Source of the DNA: a virus
IMG/VR virus record: IMGVR_UViG_3300017528_000210
Span: 1 to 41,235 of that record
Reading direction: 5' to 3' (one strand)
Length of the DNA: 41,235 bases
Made by a program: the position numbers and the translations under genes
Shown here: piece after piece, positions 142 through 41,235 of the stretch
How positions within the stretch are numbered: position 1 is the first letter of the stretch
Layout: each line of letters starts with the position of its first letter
The notes under the pieces: generated by a model
Told to the model about the DNA's origin: nothing
Database searches by the model: none
Seen by the model: the letters and a program-made list of their open reading frames with translations, nothing else

Positions 142-510
142 TAGGAGCGGAAACATCTTCTCCATGTCAGAAAGACAGGCTGGTTCATTGTGCTCGCCAT
201 CCACAAATCCGATATCGAATTTCTCTTTTATAGTCGGAAGAACAGAAGCCGAATCGCCAACCTTGATTTCAAAGAGTCCCTTAAACTGCGCCAGGTTGCG
301 TTCGACCAGTTCCGGCGAGCTTTCCCATTCCGCGTAAATGGGATTTGAAAAGTTGTCGATCAACGTGGCATGTCTGCAGCGCCCCGTCGATAATACTGCT
401 TTTGCGCTGTTTCCGGTTAAGACTCCGACCTCTATGTAGTCGATCGATCGTCCAAGACGTTCAGCCTCTTCAACTACTCTATCCGCAATGAGCTGGTGAT
501 AATCGTCCAT
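1..510 (-). CDS. Class I SAM-dependent methyltransferase (Methyltransf_24 type), 5' part up to the contig joint
   Basis: ATG at 510 opens a frame that reaches base 1 in phase and continues across the circular joint to a TAG at 41073-41071, giving a 177-residue protein. It shows the class I SAM-binding motif YIEVGVLTGNSAKA near residues 25-38 and the motif IGFVDGEHNEPACLSD followed by GIMFVDD, as in Methyltransf_24/cephalosporin-hydroxylase-like enzymes. The substrate is unknown; a small molecule, sugar or peptide is more usual for this family than DNA. The start codon lies in the TAGTATG of a palindromic repeat and the last seven residues plus the stop come from another copy. It follows a second methyltransferase of similar fold (512-1249). 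Confidence 0.8.
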   Translation of the reverse strand, partial: MDDYHQLIADRVVEEAERLGRSIDYIEVGVLTGNSAKAVLSTGRCRHATLIDNFSNPIYAEWESSPELVERNLAQFKGLFEIKVGDSASVLPTIKEKFDIGFVDGEHNEPACLSDMEKMFPLLRENGIMFVDDLENPEQLHYTALNFATAHRLRMVYHRVHNGLGELSIL

Positions 511-600
511 ACTACTTCGCTCCCTCCGGGAGCTTCGAAGTATGAATACTGCGAAGCCTTTCGTCCTCCGTAGCTTTAGCGAAGGAGGATGGCGAAGCAG
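508..600. repeat. Palindromic junction repeat, copy 1 (two nested hairpins)
   Basis: TACTTCG at 511 pairs with CGAAGTA at 536. A second hairpin has outer arms ACTGCGAAGCC and GGCGAAGCAGT and an inner TCCTCC/GGAGGA stem. On the minus strand it encodes the last ~28 residues and TAG of the upstream methyltransferase, the Shine-Dalgarno-like GGAGGGAG and the ATG of the next gene. Confidence 0.9.
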
Positions 601-1881: not shown

Positions 1882-2750
1882 GCCGCTTTCTCCTGTTGAG
1901 CGTTAAGAGTCGCCAAGGCGAACTCCGCGACTTCCTCCGGGAACGTGCGAAACAGCTCCAAGCAACCGTAATCGCACGTATGCCGAAACCCTACTACGCT
2001 AAAGCTTCGAAGGGTGGGCTTGCCCTGCGAAGCCTCTGGCGTAGCAGGGAGACAGTGGCACCCGGCGCACTCTAGCGCTTTCTTGCGGTAGGACACGACC
2101 TCGGGAATGTGAGCGTATATCCTTTCCGTGGTGGCGCCTTGAACAGCAATCGTGTGGGTGCCGATTGTGCCTGCGAGATGCGCCGGGCCACTGTCATTGC
2201 CTATGACAAGCTTTGCAGATTGGATCGCCGCGGCAATGTAGTTCCAGCTTTGTCCCACGATGCAATGGAACGGCATGAAGAAAGCGTAATCCCGCTGCTC
2301 GGTTACGAACTTCACGCTCAATCCTTCAGCTTTAAGAAGCAGTCCCAGTTCCACGAAGTAGGATTTCGGCCAGGTGCGCACCGGCGAATAACTGAACGGA
2401 AAGATGAGGACATCCGCAGTGTCCCTGCGGCCCATTTCCCGATCCATCGGGGTCATGTCCAGGCGCGGCCGTTTCGGTTCGGCTTTTACTCCGAGATGAT
2501 GCGCGATCCACTCGAGATAATTGAGTGGCGAGCGGGTCTTGACGGCTGTCTCGTAGCCTTCCCATGTCAAGGCCGCGTCTGTCTTGTCACTGGTTACGGG
2601 CATCTGAAACATCCGCAAAACTTCCGCTCGCCAATCTGTGGCAAAAAATTCAACCTGTTCGCCGGCCTGGATCAGTCCTTCACCCAGCCATGCGAAACAA
2701 ACAATGTCACCCAGCCCGCGATACCAGCCGTTGATTGTGTCGATCTTCAT
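1878..2750 (-). CDS. GT9-like (heptosyltransferase-type) glycosyltransferase with an inserted repeat
   Basis: 290 residues. The N-terminus has the GLGDIV loop (12-17) and the C-terminal half the sugar-nucleotide motif VIGNDSGPAHLAGTIG (182-197), both typical of GT9/ADP-heptose:LPS transferases. Phages use such enzymes to glycosylate virion proteins, DNA or host surface glycans; which applies here is unknown. Bases 1989-2050 are a palindromic repeat translated in frame as residues ~234-254, sitting between CAGCHC and TCDYGC, which looks like one split Cys motif. The gene's start is in a TAGGATG end of another repeat copy. Its stop overlaps the methyltransferase start. Confidence 0.82.
   Translation of the reverse strand: MKIDTINGWYRGLGDIVCFAWLGEGLIQAGEQVEFFATDWRAEVLRMFQMPVTSDKTDAALTWEGYETAVKTRSPLNYLEWIAHHLGVKAEPKRPRLDMTPMDREMGRRDTADVLIFPFSYSPVRTWPKSYFVELGLLLKAEGLSVKFVTEQRDYAFFMPFHCIVGQSWNYIAAAIQSAKLVIGNDSGPAHLAGTIGTHTIAVQGATTERIYAHIPEVVSYRKKALECAGCHCLPATPEASQGKPTLRSFSVVGFRHTCDYGCLELFRTFPEEVAEFALATLNAQQEKAA
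1989..2050. repeat. Palindromic repeat, copy 2, inside the glycosyltransferase ORF
   Basis: It contains the TACGCTAAAGCTTCGAAGG arm and a CCCTGC/GCAGGG hairpin. It is in frame and adds about 21 residues without a stop. Confidence 0.88.
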
Positions 2751-2842
2751 CCTACTACGCTAAAGCTTCGAAGGATTTCATATTACTGTCTTTCATACTG
2801 CGTAGCCTTGGCCTGCGAAGCCTCGGCGAAGCAGGCTCACTG
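2750..2842. repeat. Palindromic junction repeat, copy 3
   Basis: Two units: TCCTACTACGC...TTCGAAGGA at 2750-2775 and GCCTGCGAAGCC...GGCGAAGCAGGC at about 2811-2836. It fills most of the gap between the tiny Pro-rich ORF and the glycosyltransferase and overlaps the latter's ATG. Confidence 0.85.
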
Positions 2843-7212: not shown

Positions 7213-8696
7213 GATACCAATCGCCTTGGTTCAAATGCCGGAAAACGCGACGTCGCTGGCCGCCCGAAATGAATCACCTTCGGATCACGAATCGCGCCGG
7301 CCAAACTTTCGCCAGCCGCCCGGATAGCGAGCGCCAGCGCTGTGCAACGGTCGCTGTGGCCTTCGCGTGTCCGTGGCGCCCAGTAAGTGTATTCGCCAGC
7401 CTTGATGACCTGTTGCATGGCGTGCAAGTCTTCCCGCACCGCGGGCGACAGCGGAATTCGAATGCGGGTCGGACTTTCGAATTTGCGGCGTAACGTCGGG
7501 AAAAGAAGCCGCTTACTCCGGGGAGTGAAAGTGAACAGCTCCACTTTGCCGAACCTGTGCTCCTCCGGTTTCCATTCCCCGATGCCAGCCTCTTTCACCG
7601 CGTAATCGCCAAACCCGATTCCAGGCCCGGTATAATCAAGGGCAGTCCGGCGACTCCCTTTAATGCGCGAGGAGATGATTCTGTTCTGGTCCGGCGTGTC
7701 CATCTTCGCTAGGACAAGCACTTCGCGGGTCCAGAGAATGTCGCCGATCAATTCAAGCGTCCAGCAAACCGTGGGATCATTCGAGCGGCCGAAATCGATT
7801 CCGCAAAAGAGTTCACGGCGACTGTCGAAAAATTCATGCTCGATCATTTCAGTCGCGTCCGCGCTTTCCGCGAGCGCGATCAGATCGTATGGAAGAAGGA
7901 CGTTGCTGGTGTCAGTCGGCTCGCACTCGTATTCCTGCGCCCAGATGTCAGGATCATCGAGTGCCAGGCGCAACTCCTCGGCGTTTAGCGGTAGACCATC
8001 CTTGATGGCGTCATCGATCGTAACCCGATATCCAACGAAACCGATTTCCTTTTGTTTTTCCCAAACTTCAAAAAACTTGTTGTCTCGCCCGTTAAATGTT
8101 GAGACTACGCGGAATTTCAGTTGGCGGCGTATCGCGTCGAAATCTTCCCCCTTAAATTTTGCATCAACCCGCTCCAAAAACGTGCCGGCGAGCGGGTTCG
8201 TTATAGCTGGAAACATCGCAGCCCAGACGGCGTCGGGATCATCGTGGTATGCGAACTCATCGAGGATGACGTTTGCCGAATAGCCACGCGCAGTAAAAGG
8301 ATTGGCTGGAATCGCCGTGATCCGCGAGCCATTTGCGAAACGGATTTCGGCGACTCTTAGAAGTGCTTCACCGAACTTGCGATCCTCGGCGTAAGTGTCG
8401 ATCGCAAGCTTGTAGGCATAAGCCCATTCCTTGCATTTATCGATCCACTCGATCGCCTGGCGTTCACCAGAACTCAAACAAAGCCATTTGGCACCAGCTT
8501 CAGTGAACGAATTCGAGGTCGCTTCACACGCTGTCTGGAAACTTTTGCCGGTCTGCCGCGCTTGCACGCCGATCTTGAACCGGGCAGGATCACTGATCCA
8601 TTTCGCCTGGTAAGGAAGCAGCAGATCAAGAGGCGATACCGTCGGGCCAGGAGCCTTTTTCTTCCTGGGCCCTCTGGGCGAAAATCGATAACTCAT
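7209..8696 (-). CDS. Terminase large subunit, Mu gp28-like
   Basis: 495 residues. It packages DNA into the prohead with an ATPase and a nuclease domain. Walker A is QARQTGKS (45-52), Walker B VILDE (143-147), coupling motif VSTFN (198-202). Acidic nuclease residues likely include D301 (GIDFGRS), D354 (ALDYTG) and D449 (HSDRC), as in RNase H-fold terminases. The start ATG is inside a TAGTATG repeat end with GGAGGGAG upstream. It overlaps the portal gene by 4 bases. Confidence 0.93.
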   Translation of the reverse strand: MSYRFSPRGPRKKKAPGPTVSPLDLLLPYQAKWISDPARFKIGVQARQTGKSFQTACEATSNSFTEAGAKWLCLSSGERQAIEWIDKCKEWAYAYKLAIDTYAEDRKFGEALLRVAEIRFANGSRITAIPANPFTARGYSANVILDEFAYHDDPDAVWAAMFPAITNPLAGTFLERVDAKFKGEDFDAIRRQLKFRVVSTFNGRDNKFFEVWEKQKEIGFVGYRVTIDDAIKDGLPLNAEELRLALDDPDIWAQEYECEPTDTSNVLLPYDLIALAESADATEMIEHEFFDSRRELFCGIDFGRSNDPTVCWTLELIGDILWTREVLVLAKMDTPDQNRIISSRIKGSRRTALDYTGPGIGFGDYAVKEAGIGEWKPEEHRFGKVELFTFTPRSKRLLFPTLRRKFESPTRIRIPLSPAVREDLHAMQQVIKAGEYTYWAPRTREGHSDRCTALALAIRAAGESLAGAIRDPKVIHFGRPATSRFPAFEPRRLVS

Positions 8697-8783
8697 ACTA
8701 CTCCGCTCCCTCCTTCGCTAAAGCTTCGGAGGGCAAGCCTTGCTGGAGGGCAACGCACTGCGAAGCCTTGGCGTAGCAGTGTC
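8694..8783. repeat. Palindromic junction repeat, copy 4
   Basis: Contains CTCCTTCGCTAAAGCTTCGGAG and ACTGCGAAGCC...GGCGTAGCAGT hairpins. It fills the whole gap between the terminase subunits and supplies the SD and ATG of the large subunit. Confidence 0.9.
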
Positions 8784-10487: not shown

Positions 10488-10490
10488 TGC

Positions 10491-10521
10491 TTGTCCTGCA
10501 TAGCTTCAGCGAAGCAGGATG
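10491..10521. repeat. Palindromic junction repeat, copy 5
   Basis: TCCTGC-ATAGCTTCAGCGAA-GCAGGA hairpin, ending in the ATG of the LamG gene on the plus strand. It is the only repeat between the two large plus-strand structural genes. Confidence 0.9.
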
Positions 10522-16785: not shown

Positions 16786-16790
16786 AATAA

Positions 16791-17022
16791 GTGAGTCAGA
16801 ATAAGAAAAAAACCCACGGCAGCAAAGCGAGCCAATAAGGATAAGAGATCCACGCGCGTCAAGCGAGCCAACAACGCAAAGAAACCCAGTGACCCAAAGC
16901 AAGTCAGCACCCGAAAGAAATCCAAGCACAATAAGCGAGCCACCAATGCCAAGAAACCCACCTGGCGCAAGCGAGCCAAAATGGAAAAGGAACCCAACCT
17001 CAAAAAGCGAACAAAACCATGA
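16791..17022 (+). CDS. Lys/Arg/Ala-rich histone H1-like small protein with an apparent frameshift at A7
   Basis: A continuous frame ends in TGA at 17020-17022 and encodes repeated units like KRANKDKRS, KRANNAKKPS, KRATNAKKPT and KRAKMEKEP, like histone H1 tails or AlgP-type bacterial proteins. It has no start codon in its own frame after the TGA at 16792. A GTG at 16791 (next to the previous stop) reads VSQNKKK and then meets the A7 run at 16806-16812; deleting one A, or slipping +1, joins the two into about 76 residues. So this is a sequencing indel, programmed slippage, or a decayed gene. The stop overlaps the next ATG (ATGA), which argues it is translated. Likely DNA compaction or RNA binding. 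Confidence 0.5.
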
Positions 17023-17975: not shown

Positions 17976-18129
17976 TTTGAGCCAGCAAACCGCGGAGCTA
18001 CTCAAGGCACTCAACATGTTACACAACGACATTTCTGCCATGAACCTAACGACAATGATCTCGGCTACGGTGATAACTGCCTTGTTATTGATCCTGGCAT
18101 TTCATACTTCGAAGCCGAAGGCGAAGTAG
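17968..18129 (+). CDS. 53-residue single-TM protein
   Basis: ATG at 17968 overlaps the previous stop by 8 bases. A helical polar N-terminus (TDLSQQTAELLKALNMLHND) precedes one membrane helix (TMISATVITALLLILAF). The last residues HTSKPKAK and TAG are encoded by a palindromic repeat. Candidate holin/antiholin-like or superinfection protein; unknown. Confidence 0.6.
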   Translation: MTDLSQQTAELLKALNMLHNDISAMNLTTMISATVITALLLILAFHTSKPKAK

Positions 18130-18133
18130 TATG
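18104..18133. repeat. Palindromic junction repeat, copy 6
   Basis: ATACTTCG-AAGCCGAAGG-CGAAGTAGTAT with TAGTATG at its end: stop of the TM gene and start of the zinc-ribbon gene, one base apart, on the plus strand. Confidence 0.9.
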
Positions 18134-22218: not shown

Positions 22219-24219
22219 TTACTTTCTTTCTGTTGGGGTTGGTGGGACGAAGATGTTGAGGAGGTCGCCTGGGTGGAGGATGAGGGTGATGGGGGAAGGT
22301 GCGGCCGACGCAGTGGGGACAGGAGTAGCTGTAGGGGTGGCCGTGGGGGTTGGCGTTGCAACAGCAGTTGGAGCAGGAGTCGGCGTTGATGCCGGAGCTG
22401 GCGTTTCTGTTGGCGCAGGGTTGGGTGTTGGCGTGACATAAGGGGTGGCGGTCGGTGACGCCGAAGGTTGAGGCGTGCCGGTCGAGATCGGCGTGGGAGA
22501 AGGTCCACCACCGCCGCCAAGGGTCAAAGGGTGCGGGTAAGAGAAAGTGCCAGTGTATTGCTCGCCATTGCGAGTTGCGTCGTACGTATTTTTCACTTGT
22601 TCTGGGGTGGAATCTTTGGGGAAGGCGTTGCCGAGGTTGAAGTAATCTCGTCCTTGTCGTATTGTGGAATAACCCGTGTTAAAGCCGAGTTCCTCCTGTG
22701 GGGAGTCTTGATGAAAGTTGTTCCATGAATAACACGGTTCACTAACAGGATGCGGGTAGCCTGGTTGGCCTGTTTCGTGGAGGACAACTTCGCTTTTGAG
22801 AACATCCTGTTGATCGGTGCGGCCCCAGCCGCATCCGTCCATGACGATCAGCACTTTGCGGATTTCGTAACGGTTTCCTGGCGCAAAAACAAGTTTATTG
22901 TTCTGCGTTTGCACCGGATCATAAAATATCTGCGTGGCATCATTTCCCCTGATCCGGCTGCCATAGCACATGGGCGCTAGGGCATCCGGGTTATGAATGC
23001 TGTATCCTGCCCATTGGTTCGTGCTCCATGCGGCTTTTGTGTCCTGCATCGTGCCGGCTGCCATTTGAGTGGTCGCAGTGCCAGCCGCAAAGACATGAGA
23101 AGCGTTGCCCTCAACGAAAGTTTCGGTTCCTTCGGTATCGTTTGCGTCCCAGACACTGGTTCCGTCGCTTGTTCCCCACAACGGGTGTGTGCTTTGTTCG
23201 CCCGTCGTTCGGAAATTAGTCAGGCTGAAACCGACTCCGGCCTGGCTAATCGGCCCGATAAGGATGTTGTCATGGATCATGTTAGCTCCGCCGCGCGATC
23301 CGCCAAACCCGTTGGAAGTTGAGCCTGTAACATCAAACGTGTTGTCATAAACCTCCTTGGCTCGCACCCCGCGGCTGCCTGCTTCGGTGCCATGATCCGC
23401 GATGACCCCCCGGATGACGTAGTTGTGCCGGAACACGAACCGCCCGCCCATGACGCTATCGGTTACCCCGGTTGCCTGGGTTCCGGTTCGCTTAAACGTG
23501 TTGTCTTCAATAAACCAGAATTTGTCGGTGCCGAAGTATGGCGGAGCTTCAAAAGCGCCATTGCCCAGTGTGCGGTCCGCACCGCCAAAAGTAGCGTGAT
23601 AAATCAGGAACCCGTTTGCCTGCCCGGTAAACTCGAACAAATTATGATCGGTAACCCCATACACCCAGCCGCTGGGCCCAATGACCTGGGCGAGGGCGAG
23701 GTTTCCAAAATGGCAGTGATCTATTCTGACCGCGGTAGCCGGGTCAGGCGGCGTGTTTGTTATCCTGAAACCGGGGTTGTTGGGTTTTCCTGTTGCGCTG
23801 CCGACCAGGAAGGAAATGCCCGTCATCCTGGTCAGTTTTGACCCCGACGCGGTGATGCTGACAAACGGGTAATTGCCGCTGCGTGGAAGATCGTCTTTAA
23901 TAATCGTGTTATCGGTTGCAGCGCAATCGCTTTTTCCTGCGTTCGCTATTCCCGTGTTTCCCTGCAAAGTGATTGCTTTGGTGATAAACAGACCTTTTGT
24001 CCAGCTCGCTGTGCCGGCAGGGATCGTGACGGTGTCGCCATCTAAAGCCTGATCGATCGCGGCTTGAACGTCGGCCTGTTCGCAGGTGGCGGCCGCAATC
24101 GTGAGATGCGCACGCGGCTTGCAGCCGGAGAGCGCAAAGAGCAATCCTGCTCCGCATAAAGCTACGCAGGACAAGGTTAATACTTCGAAGCTTCGTAGAA
24201 GCGTAGTAGTATGTTTCAT
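22219..24219 (-). CDS. Beta-helix lipoprotein with a Pro/Thr tail and repeat-derived leader
   Basis: 666 residues from ATG at 24219. A signal-like leader ends in LSGCKP, a lipobox. Residues ~45-560 look like a right-handed parallel beta-helix (pectate-lyase-like: TFDVTGSTSNGFGG, NMIHDNILIGP), then a 100-residue Pro/Thr/Ala linker (TPTPTATPT style) and a short end domain. It may be a secreted or membrane-anchored polysaccharide-binding protein, a host-lysogen moron, or a tail spike whose leader is an insert. Leader residues from about 4 to 26 are translated from palindromic repeats. Confidence 0.7.
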   Translation of the reverse strand: MKHTTTLLRSFEVLTLSCVALCGAGLLFALSGCKPRAHLTIAAATCEQADVQAAIDQALDGDTVTIPAGTASWTKGLFITKAITLQGNTGIANAGKSDCAATDNTIIKDDLPRSGNYPFVSITASGSKLTRMTGISFLVGSATGKPNNPGFRITNTPPDPATAVRIDHCHFGNLALAQVIGPSGWVYGVTDHNLFEFTGQANGFLIYHATFGGADRTLGNGAFEAPPYFGTDKFWFIEDNTFKRTGTQATGVTDSVMGGRFVFRHNYVIRGVIADHGTEAGSRGVRAKEVYDNTFDVTGSTSNGFGGSRGGANMIHDNILIGPISQAGVGFSLTNFRTTGEQSTHPLWGTSDGTSVWDANDTEGTETFVEGNASHVFAAGTATTQMAAGTMQDTKAAWSTNQWAGYSIHNPDALAPMCYGSRIRGNDATQIFYDPVQTQNNKLVFAPGNRYEIRKVLIVMDGCGWGRTDQQDVLKSEVVLHETGQPGYPHPVSEPCYSWNNFHQDSPQEELGFNTGYSTIRQGRDYFNLGNAFPKDSTPEQVKNTYDATRNGEQYTGTFSYPHPLTLGGGGGPSPTPISTGTPQPSASPTATPYVTPTPNPAPTETPAPASTPTPAPTAVATPTPTATPTATPVPTASAAPSPITLILHPGDLLNIFVPPTPTERK
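24143..24213. repeat. Palindromic repeat, copy 8 (two units), encodes the lipoprotein leader
   Basis: TCCTGCTCCGC...GCGTAGCAGGA-type unit at 24144-24173 and a TACTTCGAAGC...TAGTAGTAT unit at 24179-24213, translated on the minus strand. Confidence 0.88.
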
Positions 24220-24220: not shown

Positions 24221-24730
24221 TTATGAGGGTTGTAGTTTGTAGGTGATGCCATCAACTTTTGCCGGGATACCCGGCCAAATGACGTAGGCAATGATGGAAG
24301 CGTCTGTGCCCCCCGAGTTGGGGTTGCCTGAGAGGCCGCAGCGCCTTGCGGCTTCCACGCTTGCTTCCCCGATCTTGTCGGCCGGCCCTTCGTCGCCCAC
24401 GATCGCCGGCGTGCAGAGTCCGTTCTCGAGGTTGAGGACGACTCCCTGACAACCCATCACTACGGGGTCAACGCCGTAGCGGATCATGGGAGGGACGACA
24501 ATGTAAGGGACTTCGTACGGGTTAAGGTATTTGCCGTTGTTGTAGTAAGCAGTCTGAGCTTGAAAATATAGATCATCGTCCGGGTTGCCTCCAGAGCCGT
24601 CGCAGCAGACAGTCATGTTAGCCCGCCATTGGACGCGCATCCTCGGGGAGTTAACGATATAGATCGTGCAATCCTCGAGGACGCCGAGGATATCGTCGCT
24701 CTCATCCGGTGTTATAGGTTCATCTTTCAT
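24221..24730 (-). CDS. GH75 (chitosanase-like) glycoside hydrolase, probable endolysin
   Basis: 169 residues. CDG at 43-45, VPYIVVPP at 74-81, AIVGDEGP (109-116) and KIGEASVEAA (119-128) match GH75. D113 and E122 keep the nine-residue spacing known for the catalytic pair of fungal GH75 chitosanase. In the late operon, after the tail genes and before a two-TM protein, it is the best candidate cell-wall hydrolase. No signal peptide, so a holin or Sec-independent release is expected. Whether it cuts peptidoglycan or chitosan-like polymer is unknown. Confidence 0.75.
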   Translation of the reverse strand: MKDEPITPDESDDILGVLEDCTIYIVNSPRMRVQWRANMTVCCDGSGGNPDDDLYFQAQTAYYNNGKYLNPYEVPYIVVPPMIRYGVDPVVMGCQGVVLNLENGLCTPAIVGDEGPADKIGEASVEAARRCGLSGNPNSGGTDASIIAYVIWPGIPAKVDGITYKLQPS

Positions 24731-24740
24731 GGTTGTTTCC

Positions 24741-24765
24741 CTCCTACGCTAAAGCTTCGGAGGAC
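24741..24765. repeat. Palindromic junction repeat, copy 9
   Basis: CTCCTACGCTAAAGCTTCGGAGGA, single hairpin, overlapping the 3' end of the coiled-coil membrane gene just upstream of the GH75 gene. Confidence 0.9.
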
Positions 24766-25195
24766 TTTGCCTTTCTCGTTCCAGCGCTTCAATCTTTACC
24801 TTCAAAACGTTGATTTCTTTGGTGTCCTCGTATAGCTCCTGCAATCGTTCTTCGCCCCATCGGTGACTCTTTATGTAGTCCAAGTCATCCGCCATCTTGT
24901 TTATTCGCTCTGGATTTATGAAGCCGGAAAGCCGGTTTTCTAGCTTTTCCAATCGTGCATACTGTTGCGCCTGTTCCTTCACATATTGAATATGGAAAAT
25001 CTCGAAGGATAACGTGCCTTTGCTATCCATGCGCTCAATGCGCGGAGCCATTTCGTTTTTCCACACCACGACGTCGTTGATCTTCTGGCTGTTGCGACCC
25101 AAAATGAATGCCGCGACAACGACTCCGACAATGAACGAGAGAATCTGTTTGCCGATCCCCATCCAAAGTTCTTTGGAGCCGTTGCGCAGTGTCAT
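24749..25195 (-). CDS. Membrane-anchored coiled-coil protein
   Basis: 148 residues. One TM (ILSFIVGVVVAAFILG, residues ~18-33) is followed by ~110 helical residues with heptads (MAPRIERMDSKG ... RLEKLENRLSGF ... KVKIEALERER). Topology is like an inner-membrane spanin or a holin partner in this lysis-like cluster, but a coupled outer-membrane spanin is not seen. ATGA overlap with the DUF6496-like gene. Confidence 0.6.
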   Translation of the reverse strand: MTLRNGSKELWMGIGKQILSFIVGVVVAAFILGRNSQKINDVVVWKNEMAPRIERMDSKGTLSFEIFHIQYVKEQAQQYARLEKLENRLSGFINPERINKMADDLDYIKSHRWGEERLQELYEDTKEINVLKVKIEALERERQSPPKL

Positions 25196-25365
25196 TTTTT
25201 GTTCTTCCTGGCTTGCCTTTGTGTGTTAAGAGCTACTGCGACCGCTTGTTTGTTTGCTTTCTCTTTGCCATACTTCGACAGCGTTGCTTTGTAGGTGTTG
25301 CCGGTGTGAAATTCCTTGATGTTTTTACTGACCGCTTTTTTTGATGTGCTTTTTGTTAGTGGCAT
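25192..25365 (-). CDS. DUF6496-like small basic protein
   Basis: 57 residues. GNTYKATLSKYGKEKANKQA then VAVALNTQRQARKNKK is the signature of DUF6496-type proteins (KVTSRKQAIAIAL). Function unknown; often near phage lysis or tail genes. Its stop overlaps the next start. Confidence 0.65.
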   Translation of the reverse strand: MPLTKSTSKKAVSKNIKEFHTGNTYKATLSKYGKEKANKQAVAVALNTQRQARKNKK

Positions 25366-25390
25366 GTTAGTTGTTCCTGCTATTCGTTAG

Positions 25391-28057
25391 TTATGGTGGA
25401 AGGCCGCCGCCTCCGCCGCCAGGGTTGCCTCCCCCGCTTCCCTGGACTTTTGTGTTATCAAACCAGGCATGATTCGAGTCGTCCATGCCCGCGGCGCTTG
25501 CCCAGTATTCGAGCGTATCGCCGCCGGCCGTGCAGTTGAGATGAACGGGCACAGAGTAGTTTTGTGTCACGCCTCCGTTCAGAGAATAATGAATGACTGA
25601 ACCAGCAGTCACTGCGGTCAACGTAAGGTTGCCGGCAGTGTGCCCTTTGCTCCCTGAGAAACTGCGCGACGGCGCCCCGGCTTGCTGGGTTGGCGCGGGT
25701 TGCCCAGGTATCTGTTGCACTTTAGTGTAAGTAAAAATTGCTTCCGGCGAACTGCGGCCGTTGGCGGCCGTAAACCGCACCCGGATCACCGCGCTCTTGT
25801 TGAGGTATCCAGCTATGTAGGTCGAGCCGCTTCGCGCCCATAGGACGCTCGAACGGGTCACTTCTGTCCCGTCTGCAGTGAAACGAAGGTCGAACCCCGC
25901 AGGCGGCTGAGAGGGAAGTGGCGCCACAACCCCGACAAACGGGCCGCCCGCAGGCGAGAGAGTCGGCGCCGGCACAGGATTAAACCCCGTCACCGTGTAA
26001 CTGATTGGAGTGACCGTGCTAAGATCATAATCAGCGTCCACAGTAAAAGGTTGAATCTTGAACAGCACAGTCGCGCCCGGCTCAAATCCCACATTGTCCA
26101 GAATGTGAAGATCCGCCCTGGGAATATAATACGCGACCGTGCCTGCCGGATATGATCCAACCGATGTGCCAAGACGCGCCCTGGCCCAGTAAATCTGTTT
26201 GTATCCGTTCGCGTAAGCAGCGATCGCTCCCACCGAGCAAATTTCGTTGCCGACAAAACAAAGCAGCGTATCATCGTTCACTTGCGCAACCGTCTGCGGT
26301 AACACGATCTCATCATGGTTCGGCCCGTAAATGTTCCACCACGCACTCGTAGAAGCAGTCCCTGTGTCTGCTGCCAGCACTCCGAACGCCCCAAAATTGT
26401 TGCTGCTTGAAAGGCATTGATACGTGGCACCATTATCAAAGCTTGCCCAGATCCGGTAGCCTATGACTTCCACATTTCCCTTGATCGACAGGCAGGCAAT
26501 CTGGGTCAGGAACTTCTTGTCCAATAACGTGTACGGAACTTCCACCACCCGCGAGTTCCAGATGGCCCGCGGCCCCATCACAAACCCGCCCGGCCCCTGA
26601 AACCCAGGCGGAATATAAAGACTCGGCCATACGCTCCGTTCCCATTCCACCGTCATCGTCGCCACCGCAGAATTGTCGGCAGCGTGTTCCACTTCCAGGA
26701 GCCGCATATACCACTGCAGCCCGTAGAAGGCGCTCTCGTAAAAGAACACGCTGCCGGGTAAGGCATTGTTGTTATCCAGCCATTCACGGCGGACATGGAG
26801 ATCGCCTTTTGCAGTTGGCAATGCCAGGATCGCCCCATACTCACGCGCGTAACGCTTGGCGAGGTTCGCATCAGTAATCCACGGCCGCTGCAACACGCTG
26901 GGGCGTGGACTCCCTGTAATGCGGAAATTGTTCGGGTCACGATAGCTTTGCGCGTAGGTGTTGAAATGATGATCCCGATCGGCGTACACAACTGAGAGTT
27001 CGTTGATCGTTGGACCCCACCCGGTCGGCTCCAGTTCGGGGTCGCCCAGCAAATCATCGTCAGTCAAGGTTCCGACACTTGTCACCGCGCCATGCACCCA
27101 ATAACCAACTTCAATCTGACCGCCATTGTTGCGGATCCACCCATCATAATATTCAAGGAGATTCGCCACAGCCTGCCGGAAATCGTCCTGCTGCGTGATC
27201 AAGACCGAAAGCCGCGCGCCCTGCGCTTCAAGCGCGTTAAAAAGGTTCGTGAAAGACGCGGTCACAAGCTGCGTCTCAGGCAACGCCATCCCGAACCGCG
27301 TGTCGGTAAGCCAGTCATACAACACCGCCGCCGGGTTCACTCCTTTATCATCTGAAGCTTTGAATGTCCCTCCGACAAACGGGCAGCCCCGTTTTAGTTC
27401 GAGAAGGATATTTGGCACTGATGTGCGGTTGCGCCCAAGTTTCCAATCCTTGAATACCGCGTAACATTGCCCGCGGTAAGCGGGATGTTGATCGTAGTGA
27501 CCGCTGAAGGGATCGGTATCGCCGGCGGCGAATTGGGGATTCCCCGTCTTATTTGCGCCGTCATTAGGCGGGTACGTCGTCTTGTCCTGCTTGTTACCCC
27601 CGCCAATCGGCGCCTGACGCACATTGAGTAACACGTTGTCGATCGGCTGGCTTTCATCGCCCCAGTAGAGGTGGATCGTCCCGCGCTTATCAATTGTGAT
27701 GACTTCCTTGTGCGCCTGCCCCCTTTGAATGTTGCCGCTCCAAATGATGTCCGAATCAAGAATCACCTTGTAAACCGCGTTTACCGGGTTGCGCCCACCC
27801 ATGCAGAACATCAATGCGAAATCCGCAAAATACTTGTAACTGCTGACCTGGCCGTCTTCACCTTTTTGCGTCTGAGTCGAAATTGGCTTTGCCTTGGCAT
27901 TGTAGGCGGGAGTAATGTAATTGCCGGCCACATAAACCCGGCCGGCCAGATATGGGACCGGCACCGCTTGCTGGTTCGAGTTGATCGCGTCATCAGAGAT
28001 GTTCGCCAGCTTCTTTGGCACCTGATCCTGTGGCGCGGTGTTGGCGAAGAAACTCAC
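25391..28057 (-). CDS. Tail hub / host-specificity J-like protein
   Basis: 888 residues. The N-terminal ~450 residues (PVPYLAGRVYVAGNYITPAY, LFNALEAQGARLSVLITQQD, LLEYYDGWIRNNGGQIEVGY) resemble GTA-like/PF13550-type tail tip proteins related to lambda J. Residues ~600-690 look FN3-like. Residues ~695-780 (LSPAGGPFVG ... FTADGTEVTRSS ... AANGRSSPEAIFTY) resemble the CHB_HEX_C_1 beta-sandwich. The C-terminus is Gly/Pro-rich. Likely the central tail-tip hub with an attached carbohydrate-binding arm. Confidence 0.75.
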   Translation of the reverse strand: MSFFANTAPQDQVPKKLANISDDAINSNQQAVPVPYLAGRVYVAGNYITPAYNAKAKPISTQTQKGEDGQVSSYKYFADFALMFCMGGRNPVNAVYKVILDSDIIWSGNIQRGQAHKEVITIDKRGTIHLYWGDESQPIDNVLLNVRQAPIGGGNKQDKTTYPPNDGANKTGNPQFAAGDTDPFSGHYDQHPAYRGQCYAVFKDWKLGRNRTSVPNILLELKRGCPFVGGTFKASDDKGVNPAAVLYDWLTDTRFGMALPETQLVTASFTNLFNALEAQGARLSVLITQQDDFRQAVANLLEYYDGWIRNNGGQIEVGYWVHGAVTSVGTLTDDDLLGDPELEPTGWGPTINELSVVYADRDHHFNTYAQSYRDPNNFRITGSPRPSVLQRPWITDANLAKRYAREYGAILALPTAKGDLHVRREWLDNNNALPGSVFFYESAFYGLQWYMRLLEVEHAADNSAVATMTVEWERSVWPSLYIPPGFQGPGGFVMGPRAIWNSRVVEVPYTLLDKKFLTQIACLSIKGNVEVIGYRIWASFDNGATYQCLSSSNNFGAFGVLAADTGTASTSAWWNIYGPNHDEIVLPQTVAQVNDDTLLCFVGNEICSVGAIAAYANGYKQIYWARARLGTSVGSYPAGTVAYYIPRADLHILDNVGFEPGATVLFKIQPFTVDADYDLSTVTPISYTVTGFNPVPAPTLSPAGGPFVGVVAPLPSQPPAGFDLRFTADGTEVTRSSVLWARSGSTYIAGYLNKSAVIRVRFTAANGRSSPEAIFTYTKVQQIPGQPAPTQQAGAPSRSFSGSKGHTAGNLTLTAVTAGSVIHYSLNGGVTQNYSVPVHLNCTAGGDTLEYWASAAGMDDSNHAWFDNTKVQGSGGGNPGGGGGGLPP

Positions 28058-28809: not shown

Positions 28810-30908
28810 TTCTTCCCTCCAGATACCTGCTTGGGTTTCATCGCTTTGATGGTGGGATTCACGTTCGGGATGTAGGCGTGACCACCATAGTTAATGCGGT
28901 TATTAAACTTGGTGTCGCACTGGTCGATCGAGCCATCGTAACCGGGAAAAAAGCTGTAGGCCGGTTGGCCGCTGATTTTTAATAACGGCCGGTCGATGTG
29001 GAATGTTGGCCCGCTATTGTGCAGGATGCCGCGTCTTTCAAAGTTGGGCCCAAACCCGCTCGCTAATTCCATCCAGCCGCCGGCGAAATAGTCCGCAGGT
29101 TTACCCGCCGCGGCCCCGCTCACGGTGATCACCTGGCCGCCAGTGGCTGTAACCGTCCCGGTTATCTTGAACGCATCGGCCGGGAGATGCGTTGCATCAC
29201 TGAACTGGATGTAATTGTCGCTGGTCATTAAAAGGAACCGCGGAAACTTGCGGTCGAACAAATTCCCGAACGCGATCGCTTTGGCTTTGTAATCGCTGTC
29301 CACAGACCAGACATCGCCGTAAAAACGCACCTTCGCCGTGCTCGAGAGCGGCCGCTGCGCATCCACTTCCACAACGAAAAGAGTTAAGAGCCCGTCCAGC
29401 GCGAACGGCCAAAGCTTGTTGAGCGGGTTCCCGTCGAACTTGAAGCTTTTAAACTCGAGCGTTTCCTGGTCGAGTTTCAGCCCCGTCTTGATCTTGTCGA
29501 ACGAGAACGGCGCCGGCACCCATGTGCCGGCCCATGTGCCAGTTGGGATCGTGATCGTGTTTTCGTAACTGGTGAAATAAGAAATCTGGACGCCGGCCTC
29601 GATGAAGCAGAACAGATACGCAGGCTCCGGCAACGCCGCCGGCGGGTTCTCGTATTCGTGCGGCAACTCCACAAACTTCAGCTTGGTGGTCGCCAGATAT
29701 GGCGTCGTGTATTCCCATTCGAGGGTTGCTTCCTGGAACCGCGCCAGAAGCAAATGGCTAAGGATGGTGGTCGCCGCCGTGTGCGCATTGACGTTGGCAG
29801 TCGCGGTAAGATAAGATTGGTTCGCCGCCGGCGGCTCAAACGTTCCCGAAAGTGAATAAGGATCGATCGCGTTGTTCTGATCGATCAGTGCAATGTAAGG
29901 ATCGCCCGGTTGCGCTTCACGCACCGGATCAGTGAACTCGGTGTCTTCAACCGATATCTGTCTTGGGAAGCCCGGAACCGGCGTGTCAGCGCGCAAGCGC
30001 ATATCGCCGCGCCACGTCGGAACCATGAAGCGCAAGACCGGCCCGCGCATTGCTCGCCAGAAGCGTTCGATGCGGGAGATGTCGTCCCGCGTCGCCTGAT
30101 AAAATTCGAACTCTTGTCCCCGCGGTGTCCGGTGATCGTAAACCCGTTGTTGATCGTAACGCAGGAACCCGACCTGCTCGTAAATGATGTCAGGCATCTC
30201 CGTCCAATCGACGGGCTTACTGAAGTTCGGCTGCACGTTAAAGAGCGGTGTGTAGATGAACCGCTGGATGTGGCCGCCAACAACCGGGATAAACTGCGAA
30301 CTCGTGCTTAAACGCAGCGAAAACCCGCTCCGTTCTTTGAACGTCATCTCGACTTCCATCGTTTCGTCAGTGATCGATTCCGGCTGTGGCCGATCGCTGA
30401 GCCGGCCCCACATCAGGGGATACATGATCGTCCCAGCCGGCCACGCTTTTGTCACCCCCACACCACAGCTAAATGTACTGTTTTGAACGAAAGCGGCCAA
30501 AGTGCCGTTCACGATTTCCCACGTTGAAAAGTCGCTATTGGCAATGATCCAGAATGAACCCCAGCGCACTGGCACTTCGCGGAGGGCTATCGACGTCGCG
30601 CCTTGAACGATGGCATTGGTCAGTTCACAGCCATCCGGCCAGAGCGGCACGGCAAGAACTTCGCCGCGGATGCGGGTCAGAAAAATGCGCAGCTCTGCGG
30701 CGTCCGCCGCATTGGAAAGGTAACTCGTCCACTTCATCGTGTATCGGGACGATTGCGCAAATGCCCGGCGGCTTTCAGTGAACGTGATCGGTTCTTTCGC
30801 GATATCGGTGGGAAGATCCAGCGTCACCGTGACGGTGGACGACCAGTTTGGTTGCGCGACAATCAGCCCGATCGGTTCGAGATTGTAGGTAATGATCCTG
30901 GCGACCAT
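28806..30908 (-). CDS. Distal tail / minor tail protein (DUF2163/BR0599-like)
   Basis: 700 residues, beta-rich. Two similar blocks, TFTESRRAFAQSSRYTMKWT with FLTRIRGEVLAVPLWPDGCE and EFYQATRDDISRIERFWRAM with MRGPVLRFMVPTWRGDMRLR, recall the repeated immunoglobulin-like units of distal tail and BR0599/DUF2163 proteins. It lies right after the tape measure as expected. Start ATG in a TAGTATG repeat with GGAGGGCGGAG upstream. Confidence 0.65.
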   Translation of the reverse strand: MVARIITYNLEPIGLIVAQPNWSSTVTVTLDLPTDIAKEPITFTESRRAFAQSSRYTMKWTSYLSNAADAAELRIFLTRIRGEVLAVPLWPDGCELTNAIVQGATSIALREVPVRWGSFWIIANSDFSTWEIVNGTLAAFVQNSTFSCGVGVTKAWPAGTIMYPLMWGRLSDRPQPESITDETMEVEMTFKERSGFSLRLSTSSQFIPVVGGHIQRFIYTPLFNVQPNFSKPVDWTEMPDIIYEQVGFLRYDQQRVYDHRTPRGQEFEFYQATRDDISRIERFWRAMRGPVLRFMVPTWRGDMRLRADTPVPGFPRQISVEDTEFTDPVREAQPGDPYIALIDQNNAIDPYSLSGTFEPPAANQSYLTATANVNAHTAATTILSHLLLARFQEATLEWEYTTPYLATTKLKFVELPHEYENPPAALPEPAYLFCFIEAGVQISYFTSYENTITIPTGTWAGTWVPAPFSFDKIKTGLKLDQETLEFKSFKFDGNPLNKLWPFALDGLLTLFVVEVDAQRPLSSTAKVRFYGDVWSVDSDYKAKAIAFGNLFDRKFPRFLLMTSDNYIQFSDATHLPADAFKITGTVTATGGQVITVSGAAAGKPADYFAGGWMELASGFGPNFERRGILHNSGPTFHIDRPLLKISGQPAYSFFPGYDGSIDQCDTKFNNRINYGGHAYIPNVNPTIKAMKPKQVSGGKK

Positions 30909-30974
30909 ACTACTCCGCCCTCCGGGCTACGAAGTATGAATACTGCGAAGCTTTAGCGAAGCAGTACATACTAC
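30906..30974. repeat. Palindromic junction repeat, copy 10 (two units)
   Basis: TACTCCGCCCTCCGGGCTACGAAGTA-like unit and ACTGCGAAGCTTTAGCGAAGCAGT. Bridges the tape measure's TAG and the next gene's SD and ATG. Confidence 0.9.
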
Positions 30975-34932: not shown

Positions 34933-35712
34933 TTAACTGGGTACGAGTTTGGATAGGTCGAACGTGCCTTTGACAGTCACGCCGAGGTTACTGGTATCGA
35001 GGACGAAGGTGGTTGGCACCGGGGGCGCAGGCCCGCCAGCGACAGATTGTGAAAGTCCAAACGGTGCGCCGAGTTCGGCGCAGGTCATCAGGTATTTCAT
35101 TCGCGGCAGAACGGCGCCAGTCTGGTCAAACAGGTAATCGGTGCGGCAGAGATCGACGTAAGCGTTCTGGTTTACATCCAGCAACTGACCAGAGATGATT
35201 GAAGCGTTTACCACGCGATCAACGAACAGTTGTCCCGTTTCCTTGTTCTTAACGAGCGTGGAACTCATGTCGTAAACGATTGTCGGATCAACCGCATCGA
35301 CCTGGACAAGCGTGAACGTCACGCTGATCACGTTGGCGCTCACCGCGCTTAAGTTGTTGTAAAAACCGTAACACCGGCAGATGGAATTGACCGGGGGCGC
35401 AGCGGGAATGATTATCGCGGGGCCAGCTCCACCGGGCCAAAGGTTCACCAGTAGGATCTGTTGCGCGCCAGCCACCGCAGACAGTCCGGCGCGATATCCC
35501 GCCACGTTCCAGTTATTGATGTTCGTGGAATCATAGACAATCATCTCCTCCGCGTTCGGGTCCGGTGTGCTCGAGATCCGAAAGACAGCAAAGTTGGTGT
35601 CCGGTTGCGTGATCCCGGATGAACTCGGCGCGGTAGGCGCACCCGAGATCAACCACTCGTAAACGACGTTTGCGAGGACTGTGCCTGGTTGCAATGGGAC
35701 GGTAAAAATCAT
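34933..35712 (-). CDS. Hypothetical virion protein
   Basis: 259 residues, rich in beta strands and Pro (SGAPTAPSSSGITQ; PVNSICRCYGFYNNLSAVSA). No family recognised; located beside the tail tube gene, so a tail or fibre-related protein is likely. Start in ATCATCC of a repeat boundary. Confidence 0.55.
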   Translation of the reverse strand: MIFTVPLQPGTVLANVVYEWLISGAPTAPSSSGITQPDTNFAVFRISSTPDPNAEEMIVYDSTNINNWNVAGYRAGLSAVAGAQQILLVNLWPGGAGPAIIIPAAPPVNSICRCYGFYNNLSAVSANVISVTFTLVQVDAVDPTIVYDMSSTLVKNKETGQLFVDRVVNASIISGQLLDVNQNAYVDLCRTDYLFDQTGAVLPRMKYLMTCAELGAPFGLSQSVAGGPAPPVPTTFVLDTSNLGVTVKGTFDLSKLVPS

Positions 35713-35794
35713 CCTACTCCGCTCCTTCCGAGCTACGAAGGACTTGTCCTCCGAAGCCGTTAGTCCTGCGTAACTTTAGTGAAGCAGGAAGAAT
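35711..35794. repeat. Palindromic junction repeat, copy 13 (two units)
   Basis: TCCTACTCCGCTCCTTCCGA... and TCCTGCGTAACTTTAGTGAA-GCAGGA, filling the gap between two hypothetical virion genes. Confidence 0.88.
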
Positions 35795-36173: not shown

Positions 36174-36203
36174 AGTCCTTCGTAGCTTTAGCGAAGTAGG
36201 GTC
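36174..36203. repeat. Palindromic junction repeat, copy 14
   Basis: GTCCTTCGTAGCTTTAGCGAAGTAGG with an imperfect stem, between the tail fibre stop and the next gene. Confidence 0.82.
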
Positions 36204-37725
36204 ATTGTTTGTACTCTGTTTGAACGAAGAAGTTTGTCCCGGCGAAGGATGCGCCACCGTTAAATCCGAGGCTGATCTTGGTGGGCGTCGTGCTGTTGAA
36301 TCCGGCGGAAGTCGCGCTCGTTGCTGCAACCTGGCCTCCGTTGTTGACCAACCCTGTTGTAGTAAAAACTTTAGTGAGCCGGCTATATATTGCGATCACG
36401 GCTGAAGTGCCGCTCCCCACAGATTTGAAAGTCACATACATATCAAAGAGGCCGGAATCGGCCGCCGCCGTGCCAGCCGCAAAAGTAATGGTGCCTATTG
36501 AAGCATCAGCGACTGTCCCTGCCGTCCCCATGTGAAGTGTAATGACAATCGCGGCCGTGCCGGCAGCGGTTTTCGTCATGTCAAATACGCAATGATAGGA
36601 GCCGTTCGTTTTCCACGCCCCGGCTGGAATCGTTATCACTGAACCTGGAATCGCCTGGTTAGCAGCGAATCCGGTTGCACCTGCCGCACTGCCATTCATG
36701 TAGACCTGGGCCAGATCAACGTTGCCGATTCGATAACCAGTGGACGCGTTTACGATGCCGACACCTGGATCGGTAGCGGTGCCAACTGCCAGGCCATTAC
36801 CAATGCGGGCGCGTTCGGTGGTGCCAGCGTTATTGGAAAATTTGGTGACACCTGCATTTGTCGAAATCACAACGTCGCCAGTCGTCGCAATATCATTTCT
36901 GATCCAGAGATCGTCGGAAGCCAGGATGCCGGTTCCCGTGTTTGAGCTGCCAAACAGTTTGATCTGCGCGACGCCATTTGCGTTTTTAAGTTGCACCCCG
37001 GCAGTGGCAGCCACGTTTGCCGTTGTGTTCCACCAGTCCACGAGAAAATCACCGTTGTTTGCGCCTTGCGCATTCAATCCGGATGCGGCGATCACCAGCG
37101 CCGGGCTGGTGCTGATAGCATTGCCGGAACCGTCCCCGGCAAGAATGTTGGTAGTGGTCGCAACTGATCCAGCACTGGGAACAGGCGCGAGACTGACATT
37201 GCCTGCTGAATCAGTAGTCAAAAAACCAGTGGTCGGCCCCAGACCGTTTCCAAGTGTCGGGAACTGAATCCCGCCTCCACTCCAGTCGATCTTCACTGTC
37301 GTGCCATCAGCGCCGAGGAGCTGGCGATTGCTGATGTTCTCGGCCGTTACGTTGCTGGTATCCTGCAACGGCTTGAGGACTTTCAGATTGCCGCTGGACC
37401 AATCGATCACATCACCGGCGGCCGGGTGCGTCAGTTTCGCGCTTGAGAAGTTTGCATATATTCCGGTGGTGGTGAGCGTGGTACTACCCAGAATGATGTC
37501 GTTGAGTGCATTGCTATTGTCCCATTTGCTTAAACTCGCATTCCAAACCAGCGGCTGATTGTCAGTTGGCGAAGTGATGACGACGTCGCTCAACTGCGAT
37601 AGAAAGCTTGTCGGCGGCCGTGGGGCCTGGGCGAATCCTGCTCCGCTAAAGCTACGCAGGACAAGTCCTGCTATTGCTACGAAGTATAAATACTTCGTAG
37701 CTCTGAAGGAGCGTAGTAGTATCAT
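36202..37725 (-). CDS. Tail fibre-like protein with repeat-derived signal-like leader
   Basis: 507 residues. After the leader, LSDVVITSPTDNQPLVWNAS and SKWDNSNAL is the repeated motif common in phage tail fibres; the rest is Gly/Thr/Ala-rich beta structure ending with a beta-sandwich. The ATG at 37725 overlaps the previous stop and no other start codon occurs before the fibre domain, so the leader MILLRSFRATKYLYFVAIAG with GLVLRSFSGAGFAQA really is translated. It is entirely repeat-encoded. A fibre with a Sec-like leader is odd for a phage. Confidence 0.75.
   Translation of the reverse strand: MILLRSFRATKYLYFVAIAGLVLRSFSGAGFAQAPRPPTSFLSQLSDVVITSPTDNQPLVWNASLSKWDNSNALNDIILGSTTLTTTGIYANFSSAKLTHPAAGDVIDWSSGNLKVLKPLQDTSNVTAENISNRQLLGADGTTVKIDWSGGGIQFPTLGNGLGPTTGFLTTDSAGNVSLAPVPSAGSVATTTNILAGDGSGNAISTSPALVIAASGLNAQGANNGDFLVDWWNTTANVAATAGVQLKNANGVAQIKLFGSSNTGTGILASDDLWIRNDIATTGDVVISTNAGVTKFSNNAGTTERARIGNGLAVGTATDPGVGIVNASTGYRIGNVDLAQVYMNGSAAGATGFAANQAIPGSVITIPAGAWKTNGSYHCVFDMTKTAAGTAAIVITLHMGTAGTVADASIGTITFAAGTAAADSGLFDMYVTFKSVGSGTSAVIAIYSRLTKVFTTTGLVNNGGQVAATSATSAGFNSTTPTKISLGFNGGASFAGTNFFVQTEYKQ
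37635..37722. repeat. Palindromic repeat, copy 15 (two to three units), encodes the tail fibre leader
   Basis: TCCTGCTCCGCTAAAGCTACG-GCAGGA region (37637-37663) plus GCTACGAAGTATAAATACTTCGTAGC (37675-37700) and CTCTGAAGGAGCGTAGTAGTAT. Confidence 0.9.
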
Positions 37726-38189
37726 TGAATGGAGATTGGCGCTTGGAATCGGACGTTGTAAACGAGCAGTGGAACTTCCGCGACCAGGAGAAATGGAACT
37801 TCGTCCAGCACGATGCGGCGGATCTTTTGATGATCCCGCGAGAACCAGTGGAGGCGTTTCATGCAGAACTCGACCAGATCCAGCGCGGGAACCTGCGTTC
37901 CACTGGCGCCGCGGTTGATGGTGACGTTTTCCTGGATCTGGATTTCAACGAGTGAACTGACCGCAATATTTGGACCCTGCTCTTTCTGCATCAGTTTGCC
38001 GCCCGGTGTCATCACGATCCCGATTATCCCGAGCTTGCCAGTCGCGCGGGCTATGATGTTCGCCAGATCGCCGATGTTTTCAGTGATCCATTGGATCTGG
38101 CCGTTTACCGGCACGGGTGCAGGAACGTTCGGATCAACCGCCGTGAAGCGTGCGATGATTGAGTTCTGGAGATCGGCGAGCTTGCTCAT
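37722..38189 (-). CDS. Mu gp37/DUF1834-like tail terminator or connector protein
   Basis: 155 residues. ADLQNSIIARFTAV...IQWITENIGDLANIIARATG and VEIQIQENVTINRGASGTQV suggest the Mu gp37-type connector family. Located in the head-tail joining cluster between gp10-like protein and fibre. Start in a TAGTATG repeat end. Assignment moderate. Confidence 0.55.
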   Translation of the reverse strand: MSKLADLQNSIIARFTAVDPNVPAPVPVNGQIQWITENIGDLANIIARATGKLGIIGIVMTPGGKLMQKEQGPNIAVSSLVEIQIQENVTINRGASGTQVPALDLVEFCMKRLHWFSRDHQKIRRIVLDEVPFLLVAEVPLLVYNVRFQAPISIQ

Positions 38190-38252
38190 ACTACTTCACT
38201 CCTTCGGAGTTTCGAAGTATTGAATCCTGCGTAGCCTTGGCGGAGTAGGATC
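38187..38252. repeat. Palindromic junction repeat, copy 16 (two units)
   Basis: TACTTCACTCCTTCGGAGTTTCGAAGTA and TCCTGCGTAGCC...GGAGTAGGA. Overlaps the ATG of the gp37-like gene and adjoins the stop of the gp10-like gene. Confidence 0.9.
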
Positions 38253-40641: not shown

Positions 40642-41069
40642 GCTGGTGGCGGCGGTGGCGGATTCGTGCGCATATCGATTTTGATGGCACTTCCCCATTT
40701 GCCGAACTGCTCACTAGTCGCCGGCACAGCGGCTTGCGTAACTGTTGAAACGTCTTTCGCGATATCGACCAAATGATGGTAAGCGTCGTCACGTTCCTTT
40801 TGCCGGATGGGCGTGAGCAGCGTTCCGGTGGGATCTTGTGCCAGATAAGTAAACCGAGCGATGGCGATCACATCATCAACACACTCCGGCGGCACTGCCG
40901 GCGCCGGCTCCAGGATGTTGCCGCCACCCGCCACGTAACTGCGAACGTAGGCTGAGGCTGATGCCACGCAGGTATCAATGTCCTGGAGCGGCGTGGCGTT
41001 TGCCATGATCGTCCGCTCCGTGTCCAGAAGCCGGATATCGTCGCCAGAAAGTATTTTCCAGTTAGCCAT
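40638..41069 (-). CDS. Mu gp36/DUF1320-like head-tail connector protein
   Basis: 143 residues from ATG at 41069, not the longer frame that runs into the methyltransferase. NWKILSGDDIRLLDTE, then DIDTCVASASAYVRSYVAGG and CVDDVIAIARFTYLAQD match DUF1320. The C-terminus NPPPPPPA is Pro-rich. SD GGAGGAG and ATG come from the repeat at 41067. Confidence 0.8.
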   Translation of the reverse strand: MANWKILSGDDIRLLDTERTIMANATPLQDIDTCVASASAYVRSYVAGGGNILEPAPAVPPECVDDVIAIARFTYLAQDPTGTLLTPIRQKERDDAYHHLVDIAKDVSTVTQAAVPATSEQFGKWGSAIKIDMRTNPPPPPPA

Positions 41070-41101
41070 ACTACTTCGCTCCTCCGGAGCTACGAAGTAT
41101 T
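41067..41101. repeat. Palindromic junction repeat, copy 17
   Basis: TACTTCGCTCC...GGAGCTACGAAGTA. The clearest module: on the minus strand GGAGGAGCGAAGTAGTATG gives SD, TAG stop of the upstream methyltransferase and ATG of DUF1320. Confidence 0.95.
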
Positions 41102-41235
41102 GACAGTTCACCCAAACCGTTATGGACACGGTGGTAAACCATCCTGAGCCGGTGCGCTGTTGCAAAGTTTAGAGCTGTGTAATGAAGTTGCTCTGGATTC
41201 TCTAAATCATCCACGAACATGATCCCGTTTTCCCG
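41071..41235 (-). CDS. 3' part of the joint-spanning methyltransferase
   Basis: This is the same gene as 1-510. Bases 41095-41235 duplicate its codons and 41071-41094 add the true C-terminus RSSGGAK and the TAG stop, all encoded by a palindromic repeat. The next gene starts one base after the stop (TAG-T-ATG). Confidence 0.8.
   Translation of the reverse strand, partial: RENGIMFVDDLENPEQLHYTALNFATAHRLRMVYHRVHNGLGELSILRSSGGAK
41095..41235. repeat. Right copy of the 141-bp terminal overlap
   Basis: Identical to bases 1-141. Removing one copy gives a 41,094-bp circle. Gene content here duplicates the left end and should not be counted twice. Confidence 0.95.

Follow-up and report, generated by a model that had tools for sequence, protein, structure and literature searches.

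A composite of two palindromic repeats, lying inverted at two gene junctions of a phage, has probably become the front part of two predicted export signals, overwriting an existing signal in a fibre-like gene and likely replacing an older one in a putative lipoprotein gene. The DNA analysed (hereafter the window) is the whole stretch of 41,235 nucleotides of the IMG/VR virus record IMGVR_UViG_3300017528_000210, a phage contig with terminase, portal, head and tail genes, whose terminase is related to those of B3-like phages. The two genes and the repeat units in their leaders are as follows.

22219..24219, minus strand: putative lipoprotein gene, 666 aa, with lipobox LSGC at residues 30-33.
24144..24174, minus strand: repeat unit A in the lipoprotein leader, with an extra T (TTTATGCGG); codes LSCVALCGAG.
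24179..24213, minus strand: repeat unit B in the lipoprotein leader, inverted relative to the gene; codes HTTTLLRSFEVL.
36202..37725, minus strand: fibre-like gene, 507 aa; its start overlaps the upstream stop (ATGA), and cleavage is predicted between FAQA and PRPP.
37635..37664, minus strand: repeat unit A in the fibre leader; codes LVLRSFSGAG.
37688..37722, minus strand: repeat unit B in the fibre leader, inverted relative to the gene; codes ILLRSFRATKY.

Read on the minus strand, the lipoprotein begins MKHTTTLLRSFEVLTLSCVALCGAGLLFALSGC from ATG 24219 and the fibre-like protein MILLRSFRATKYLYFVAIAGLVLRSFSGAGFAQAPRPP from ATG 37725. In comparisons within the record, the two leaders share 97% identity in unit A over 33 bases (E 9e-10); in unit B the figure is 85% (E 6e-6), and the likeness is far above chance. 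An earlier note on this DNA had stated that both genes begin with one repeat pair, and this is borne out by the sequences, by these matches and by about 28 recurrences of the units in the window. The note had also stated that the repeats are read in different frames, which the codon phases confirm: TACTACGC and TGTCCTGCGTAGCTTTA are common to both leaders, the former in phase 2 in the lipoprotein and phase 1 in the fibre, the latter in phase 1 and phase 2, respectively. Owing to the extra T in the lipoprotein (TTTATGCGG versus TTTAGCGG), both genes read GCGGAGCAGGAT in one phase. Both leaders are a B-A composite inverted and read through. Derivation of the leaders from the repeats, as the note had it, applies to their front parts but not to their endings, because the cleavage regions, LLFALSGC in the lipoprotein and FAQA in the fibre, are coded just outside the repeat units.

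The signal-peptide character of the leaders was scored with a home-made heuristic that combines hydrophobicity and a cleavage site. The fibre leader scores 4.72 and the lipoprotein leader 3.91 with its lipobox, compared with 3.4-5.2 for the leaders of homologues, and both are among the six highest of 41 calls in the window, the others including two transmembrane-like proteins. By the same heuristic, the lipoprotein leader consists of K2, R9, the core VLTLSCVALCGAGLLFAL and the lipobox LSGC ending at residue 33, and the fibre leader of R5, R8, K11, the core YLYFVAIAGLVL and AQA. Both are thus predicted on heuristic grounds to look like Sec signals, in agreement with the earlier note. Codon usage is atypical in both leaders (log-likelihood -6.5 and -6.7), and in the lipoprotein leader region another frame scores better; these tests are uninformative or mildly negative.

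Palindrome A measures about 26-31 nt and palindrome B about 30-36 nt; about 28 copies of them occur in the window, mostly between genes and often joined as a B-A composite of 60-90 bp. Seventeen of the 28 units are mostly non-coding, against 4.0 expected and a maximum of 11 in 5000 random placements. The units are hairpin-forming; the RNA of the fibre leader folds with -34.1 kcal/mol (z -4.3) and that of the lipoprotein leader with -21.5 kcal/mol (z -2.5). A and B are best explained as short, palindromic repeats that have spread through the phage's gene junctions.

In its normal orientation B presents an SD-like GGAG, then TAG and then a flush ATG (GGAG..GTAGTATG); 5' of the ATG that it supplies, GGAG or a similar purine run is found in most copies and TAG in all. 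The ATG of a start-orientation B opens a gene in 7/7 cases, the ORFs being 74-700 codons long, whereas 24% of all ATGs open at least 70 codons (p about 4e-5). A-type units are also flush with two ATGs. The start-associated units are listed below.

508..590, plus strand: B-A composite, normal orientation; supplies ATG 510 and codes the C-terminal tail SSFAKATEDERLRSIHTSKLPEGAK of ORF 512-1249.
2748..2777, plus strand: A-type unit; flush with ATG 2750, glycosyltransferase-9 gene.
8694..8780, plus strand: B and A units 5' of the terminase gene; supply ATG 8696.
10490..10520, plus strand: A unit; flush with ATG 10519, LamG protein.
18104..18133, plus strand: B unit; supplies ATG 18131.
30906..30967, plus strand: B-A composite, normal orientation; supplies ATG 30908.
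35710..35790, plus strand: B-A composite, normal orientation; supplies ATG 35712.
38187..38251, plus strand: B-A composite, normal orientation, between two minus-strand genes; supplies ATG 38189, and A abuts a stop at 38251.
41067..41103, plus strand: B unit; supplies ATG 41069 and codes LSILRSSGGAK, the C-terminus encoded by the gene starting at 510.

ORF 512-1249, which is methyltransferase-like, sits upstream of the composite at 508..590. Besides the two leaders, translated copies in the window form C-terminal tails, in ORF 512-1249 and in the gene at 510. Since the repeats are found at starts, in C-terminal tails and in frame, the two leaders are particular instances of a wider tendency of repeats at gene ends to be taken up into reading frames.

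Outside the window, scans of viral contigs with the B-unit pattern gave no match. Matches to unit A in genome contigs are, among those listed, scattered, mostly single and distributed over many phyla, and in a sample of 388 genomes from the phylum to which one Opitutaceae MAG belongs, the matches to A were all weak. The 32 portal-related contigs contain no recognisable A/B units except for L208 (A only), in which the orthologous glycosyltransferase gene has its start flush with an A-like unit; two other phages with A units (L030 and L046) likewise have flush GGATG starts. In an unrelated phage, an A unit lies in frame inside the portal protein, where it codes SGSAKATQD (L030 8239-8268; L012 1307-1336).

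The fibre-like protein has no Pfam or PHROG match, and its N-terminal module weakly resembles internal parts of annotated tail fibres (E 0.06-0.7); the name 'tail fibre' used in the earlier note is therefore likely only. Direct searches with the protein in viral contigs and among named phages yielded no homologues, and its orthologues were found through synteny, by a portal-protein search that led to the 32 related contigs. The anchor was the following gene.

37722..38189, minus strand: g37722, upstream neighbour of the fibre gene and conserved beside it in relatives; a B unit ends in the ATG with which g37722 starts.

Five distinct loci have a fibre gene directly 3' of the g37722 orthologue or at the matching place. 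Ordinary leaders free of A/B are found in L201 (51% identity; MKKILLLLLLSVESVLGQAGRPP / MKKILLLLLLSVESVLGQAGRPPVTTLSGLSDV), L205 (MKLSFFILIATATIAFGQASRPPVTTLSGLSDV) and L200 (MKIFLHSIWILIGLLLATPAFPQAGRPP / MKIFLHSIWILIGLLLATPAFPQAGRPPVTTIGGLSDV), the comparison with L200 being one of leaders, as 3' of its leader the gene continues in another frame than the one that was followed. L202 and its near-copy L228 have the fibre gene MSARPPVTFLSRLNDV without a leader, L202 starting MSARPPVTFLS, and the fibre gene of L210 reads MNFKFQISNFKLAVALLAICNLQSAICNSFGQGSRPP. The surroundings of the cleavage site are alike, with QAGRPP/QASRPP in L200, L201 and L205 and QAPRPP in the window. The ATGA start form is shared by the window with L201, L202, L205 and L210, and its overlap with g37722 is shared with L201 and L205. 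By the portal tree, the window belongs to the clade that includes L200, L201, L202 and L205 (96/93), adjoining L198 and L201.

Because A/B-free relatives have ordinary signal peptides, the export signal of the fibre gene would be older than the repeat. With the leaders of the orthologues and the portal tree taken together, parsimony points to an ordinary signal peptide before the repeat, which replaced it, and to a loss in L202; the comparison that suggests this overwriting is with orthologues about 50% identical or less. The earlier note had held that the signal was gained from the repeats, and had named orthologues with conserved non-repeat leaders as an observation that would speak against this. 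Such orthologues are exactly what the syntenic L200, L201 and L205 provide, and gain is not sustained for the fibre gene.

The fibre gene together with g34933 (window 34933-37725) looks like an optional cassette; in L209 (18384) and L224 (18067), a g34681-like gene comes immediately after g37722.

The lipoprotein is homologous to exported-looking proteins of other phages and of one bacterium. Signal-like leaders without repeats are present in its homologues L009, L167, L168 and L210 (viral contigs) and L169 (bacterial genome), whereas L205, the closest homologue by identity, starts MATINAAS without a leader. In L165 and L166 the lipoprotein domain lies inside a longer protein. An AlphaFold model of the lipoprotein is too poor to use (pLDDT 42.7). 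As the gene tree is a polytomy, it is likely that the repeat replaced an older signal and possible that the signal was gained from the repeat; the five leader-bearing homologues speak against the gain claimed in the earlier note, and the leaderless start of L205 keeps it possible. The export signal appears not to be obligatory for either protein, because the fibre proteins of L202/L228 and the lipoprotein homologue of L205 have no leader.

Sec-type leaders on phage fibre-like proteins are unexpected, and according to one survey the target proteins of phage DGRs are without them (PMC6199706). Instead of being a part of the virion, the 'fibre' may be a cargo protein that is exported. Consecutive tail-region genes with signal-like leaders, some of them large and fibre-like, were also seen in L191 (1404-9988), G408 (24717-29703; L193) and G409 (31420-44315; L196, L197), and in L009/G001 and L167/G408 the genes with signal-like leaders adjoin baseplate or tail genes.

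The following course of events is proposed for the two leaders. In the normal orientation, B would deliver an SD-like GGAG, a stop and a start codon to the next gene. At the two junctions, an inverted composite would have entered the 5' end of the downstream gene, presumably by insertion or conversion; it lies just inside that gene, 3' of its ATG, and would be translated from ATG 24219 or ATG 37725. Inverted B would then give the basic start (HTTTLLRSF / ILLRSFRATK) and A the hydrophobic stretch (LSCVAL / VLRSF..GAG); the composite would thereby stand in for the n-region and the greater part of the h-region, whereas non-repeat DNA supplies the cleavage region (LSGC; AQA). In the fibre gene, what was overwritten would be a pre-existing Sec signal peptide. 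Indels and small changes, such as the extra T and a TTA where the B consensus has TGA, may subsequently have kept the frame open, and the rewritten leader would still work as a Sec signal because Sec signals are permissive.

Three other explanations have been considered. The composite may be ordinary intergenic DNA in which the leader frames are open by luck, translation starting downstream and no signal peptide being encoded by the repeat. Such a reading fits with the repeats filling other gene gaps and abutting stops, with the outcome of a search for a clear SD 5' of ATG 37725 and ATG 24219, which found none, with a TTG in the lipoprotein gene 5 nt 3' of the GGAG of GGAGCAGGA and another in the fibre gene before SDVVITSP, and with the leaderless relatives L202 and L205. 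It is nevertheless considered rather unlikely, for the fibre ATG with its ATGA overlap is placed like the start of the signal-bearing L201 and L205, QAPRPP matches the post-leader QAGRPP/QASRPP of these two relatives, the fibre gene offers no second in-frame ATG near its beginning, no SD accompanies its TTG, and the extra T holds the lipoprotein leader in frame with the lipobox. The reading of the earlier note, that two non-exported proteins newly gained export signals from one repeat pair, agrees with both leaders being repeat-encoded and, for the lipoprotein, with L205 and the polytomy, but is improbable in view of the ordinary signal peptides at the matching position in the three fibre orthologues, the leaders in four viral-contig homologues of the lipoprotein besides L205 and in the bacterial one, and the cleavage regions, which are not derived from the repeats.

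It might also be argued that the leaders are a trivial by-product of palindromes rich in GTAGC/GCTAC, which code hydrophobic residues in two of three frames, such that any open A leader is signal-like. In leader orientation, unit A indeed has two open and hydrophobic frames (LSCVALA and VLRSFSGAG), the third being closed. Nine composites give 27 frames in leader orientation, of which 11 are open; in 5 of these 11 the 10-residue hydrophobicity maximum is at least 1.6, compared with 22% of open shuffles (mean of the shuffles' maxima 1.02, sd 0.71). The most hydrophobic of the open frames are those of the two real leaders (2.51 and 2.52). The repeat material, therefore, predisposes to signal-like leaders. 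Such a predisposition leaves unexplained why each of the two inverted copies shares its frame with a cleavage motif, and this at a site where signal peptides are found in relatives; as a full account it is very improbable. Replacement of older signals by the inverted composite remains the preferred explanation.

Other repeats are found in the leaders of relatives. The fibre leader of L210 consists of two heptamer arrays, (AATTTCA)x4 and (GCAATCT)x4; a heptamer start of this type was found in none of the 388 genomes scanned. In G411, the contig of L198 and thus of the window's nearest relative, the leader MGVGRWAILLSAISYLQSAAAQ of a gene that shares the C-terminal domain of the window's fibre (47%) lies in degenerate heptamers (GGGAGAT/ATCTCCT). 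The predicted leader MKPFLSFSASLRLCASLLLAASLQGQ of L215 overlaps GCGTCTCT octamers. In a post hoc count, tandem repeats are present in the leaders of 2 of 56 signal-like genes and 2 of 421 others (Fisher 0.07), and when L210, which fell outside the score cut of the count, is added, also post hoc, the former becomes 3 of 57 (p 0.014). Since the predicted leaders of three relatives overlap other repeats, the entry of repeat DNA into signal-peptide regions may be recurrent, as judged post hoc from small numbers. The general suggestion of the earlier note, that repeats are a source of export signals, gains some independent support from these three relatives. It is tentatively put forward, as a conjecture with somewhat less than even prospects, that in this phage group the stretches coding for signal peptides of exported cargo repeatedly take up non-coding repeat DNA, unrelated repeat families having independently become predicted leaders, with export kept and sequence rewritten.

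Several known systems resemble A and B in part. REP/REPIN sequences are pairs of palindromes between genes that depend on a RAYT (Y1) transposase for their mobility, and the palindromes of the window are likewise paired; among the window proteins scanned, which represent part of the ORFs, there is no Y1 transposase, only an IS110-like one at 17019-17975. Rickettsia palindromic elements, in the account given in PMC6649704 (citing Ogata 2000, 2002), are palindromes that are translated in frame inside protein genes and tolerated. A and B are similarly palindromic, hairpin-forming and in frame within coding sequence, but they occur in a phage genome, are mostly intergenic and flush with start codons, and their translated copies are mainly at gene ends, here in export leaders. 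In cluster K mycobacteriophages, start-associated and extended start-associated sequences lie directly 5' of many starts, some with imperfect inverted repeats, and have the 13-bp consensus GGGATAGGAGCCC (Pope 2011, PMC3203893). The seven start-orientation B units and the A units at 2750 and 10519 are flush with starts in the same manner. In comparison with the published consensus, however, none of the listed A/B units matches it, and in contrast to the cluster K repeats both the stop and the ATG lie within B, and inverted A/B copies would be translated.

With respect to the turnover of signals, signal peptides come and go among bacterial orthologues (Enterobacterales) by N-terminal acquisition or loss (PMC5952966); repeats are not mentioned in the main text of that study, whereas in the present case the DNA that served as donor can be identified, and the signal would have been replaced. 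Random sequences were able to replace the invertase signal, signal peptides being permissive to unrelated sequence (Kaiser 1987, as cited in PMC8584900); that case, as described there, was one of laboratory selection in yeast, whereas the present one concerns a natural repeat in a phage. A start-site repeat that serves, inverted, as the front of an export leader, with orthologues showing the replaced state, was not found in searches of open-access papers.

To our knowledge, natural cases in which a new leader can be traced to its source DNA seem to be scarce, and here one phage has two. As the relatives offer an ordinary leader, no leader and leaders in other repeats at the matching gene position, the turnover of signal peptides becomes directly testable. 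Annotators may also be warned that repeat-derived N-termini can be real parts of genes.

Some further features of the window were observed. A perfect terminal direct repeat of 141 bp (1-141 and 41095-41235) indicates a circular or terminally redundant genome. Direct repeats with 18/36-bp spacing (AAGCGAGCCAA...) occupy 16789-17015, just before the IS110-like transposase gene. The head gene cluster includes a gene for a 6-pyruvoyl tetrahydropterin synthase (QueD-like) at 40219-40698, possibly concerned with DNA modification.
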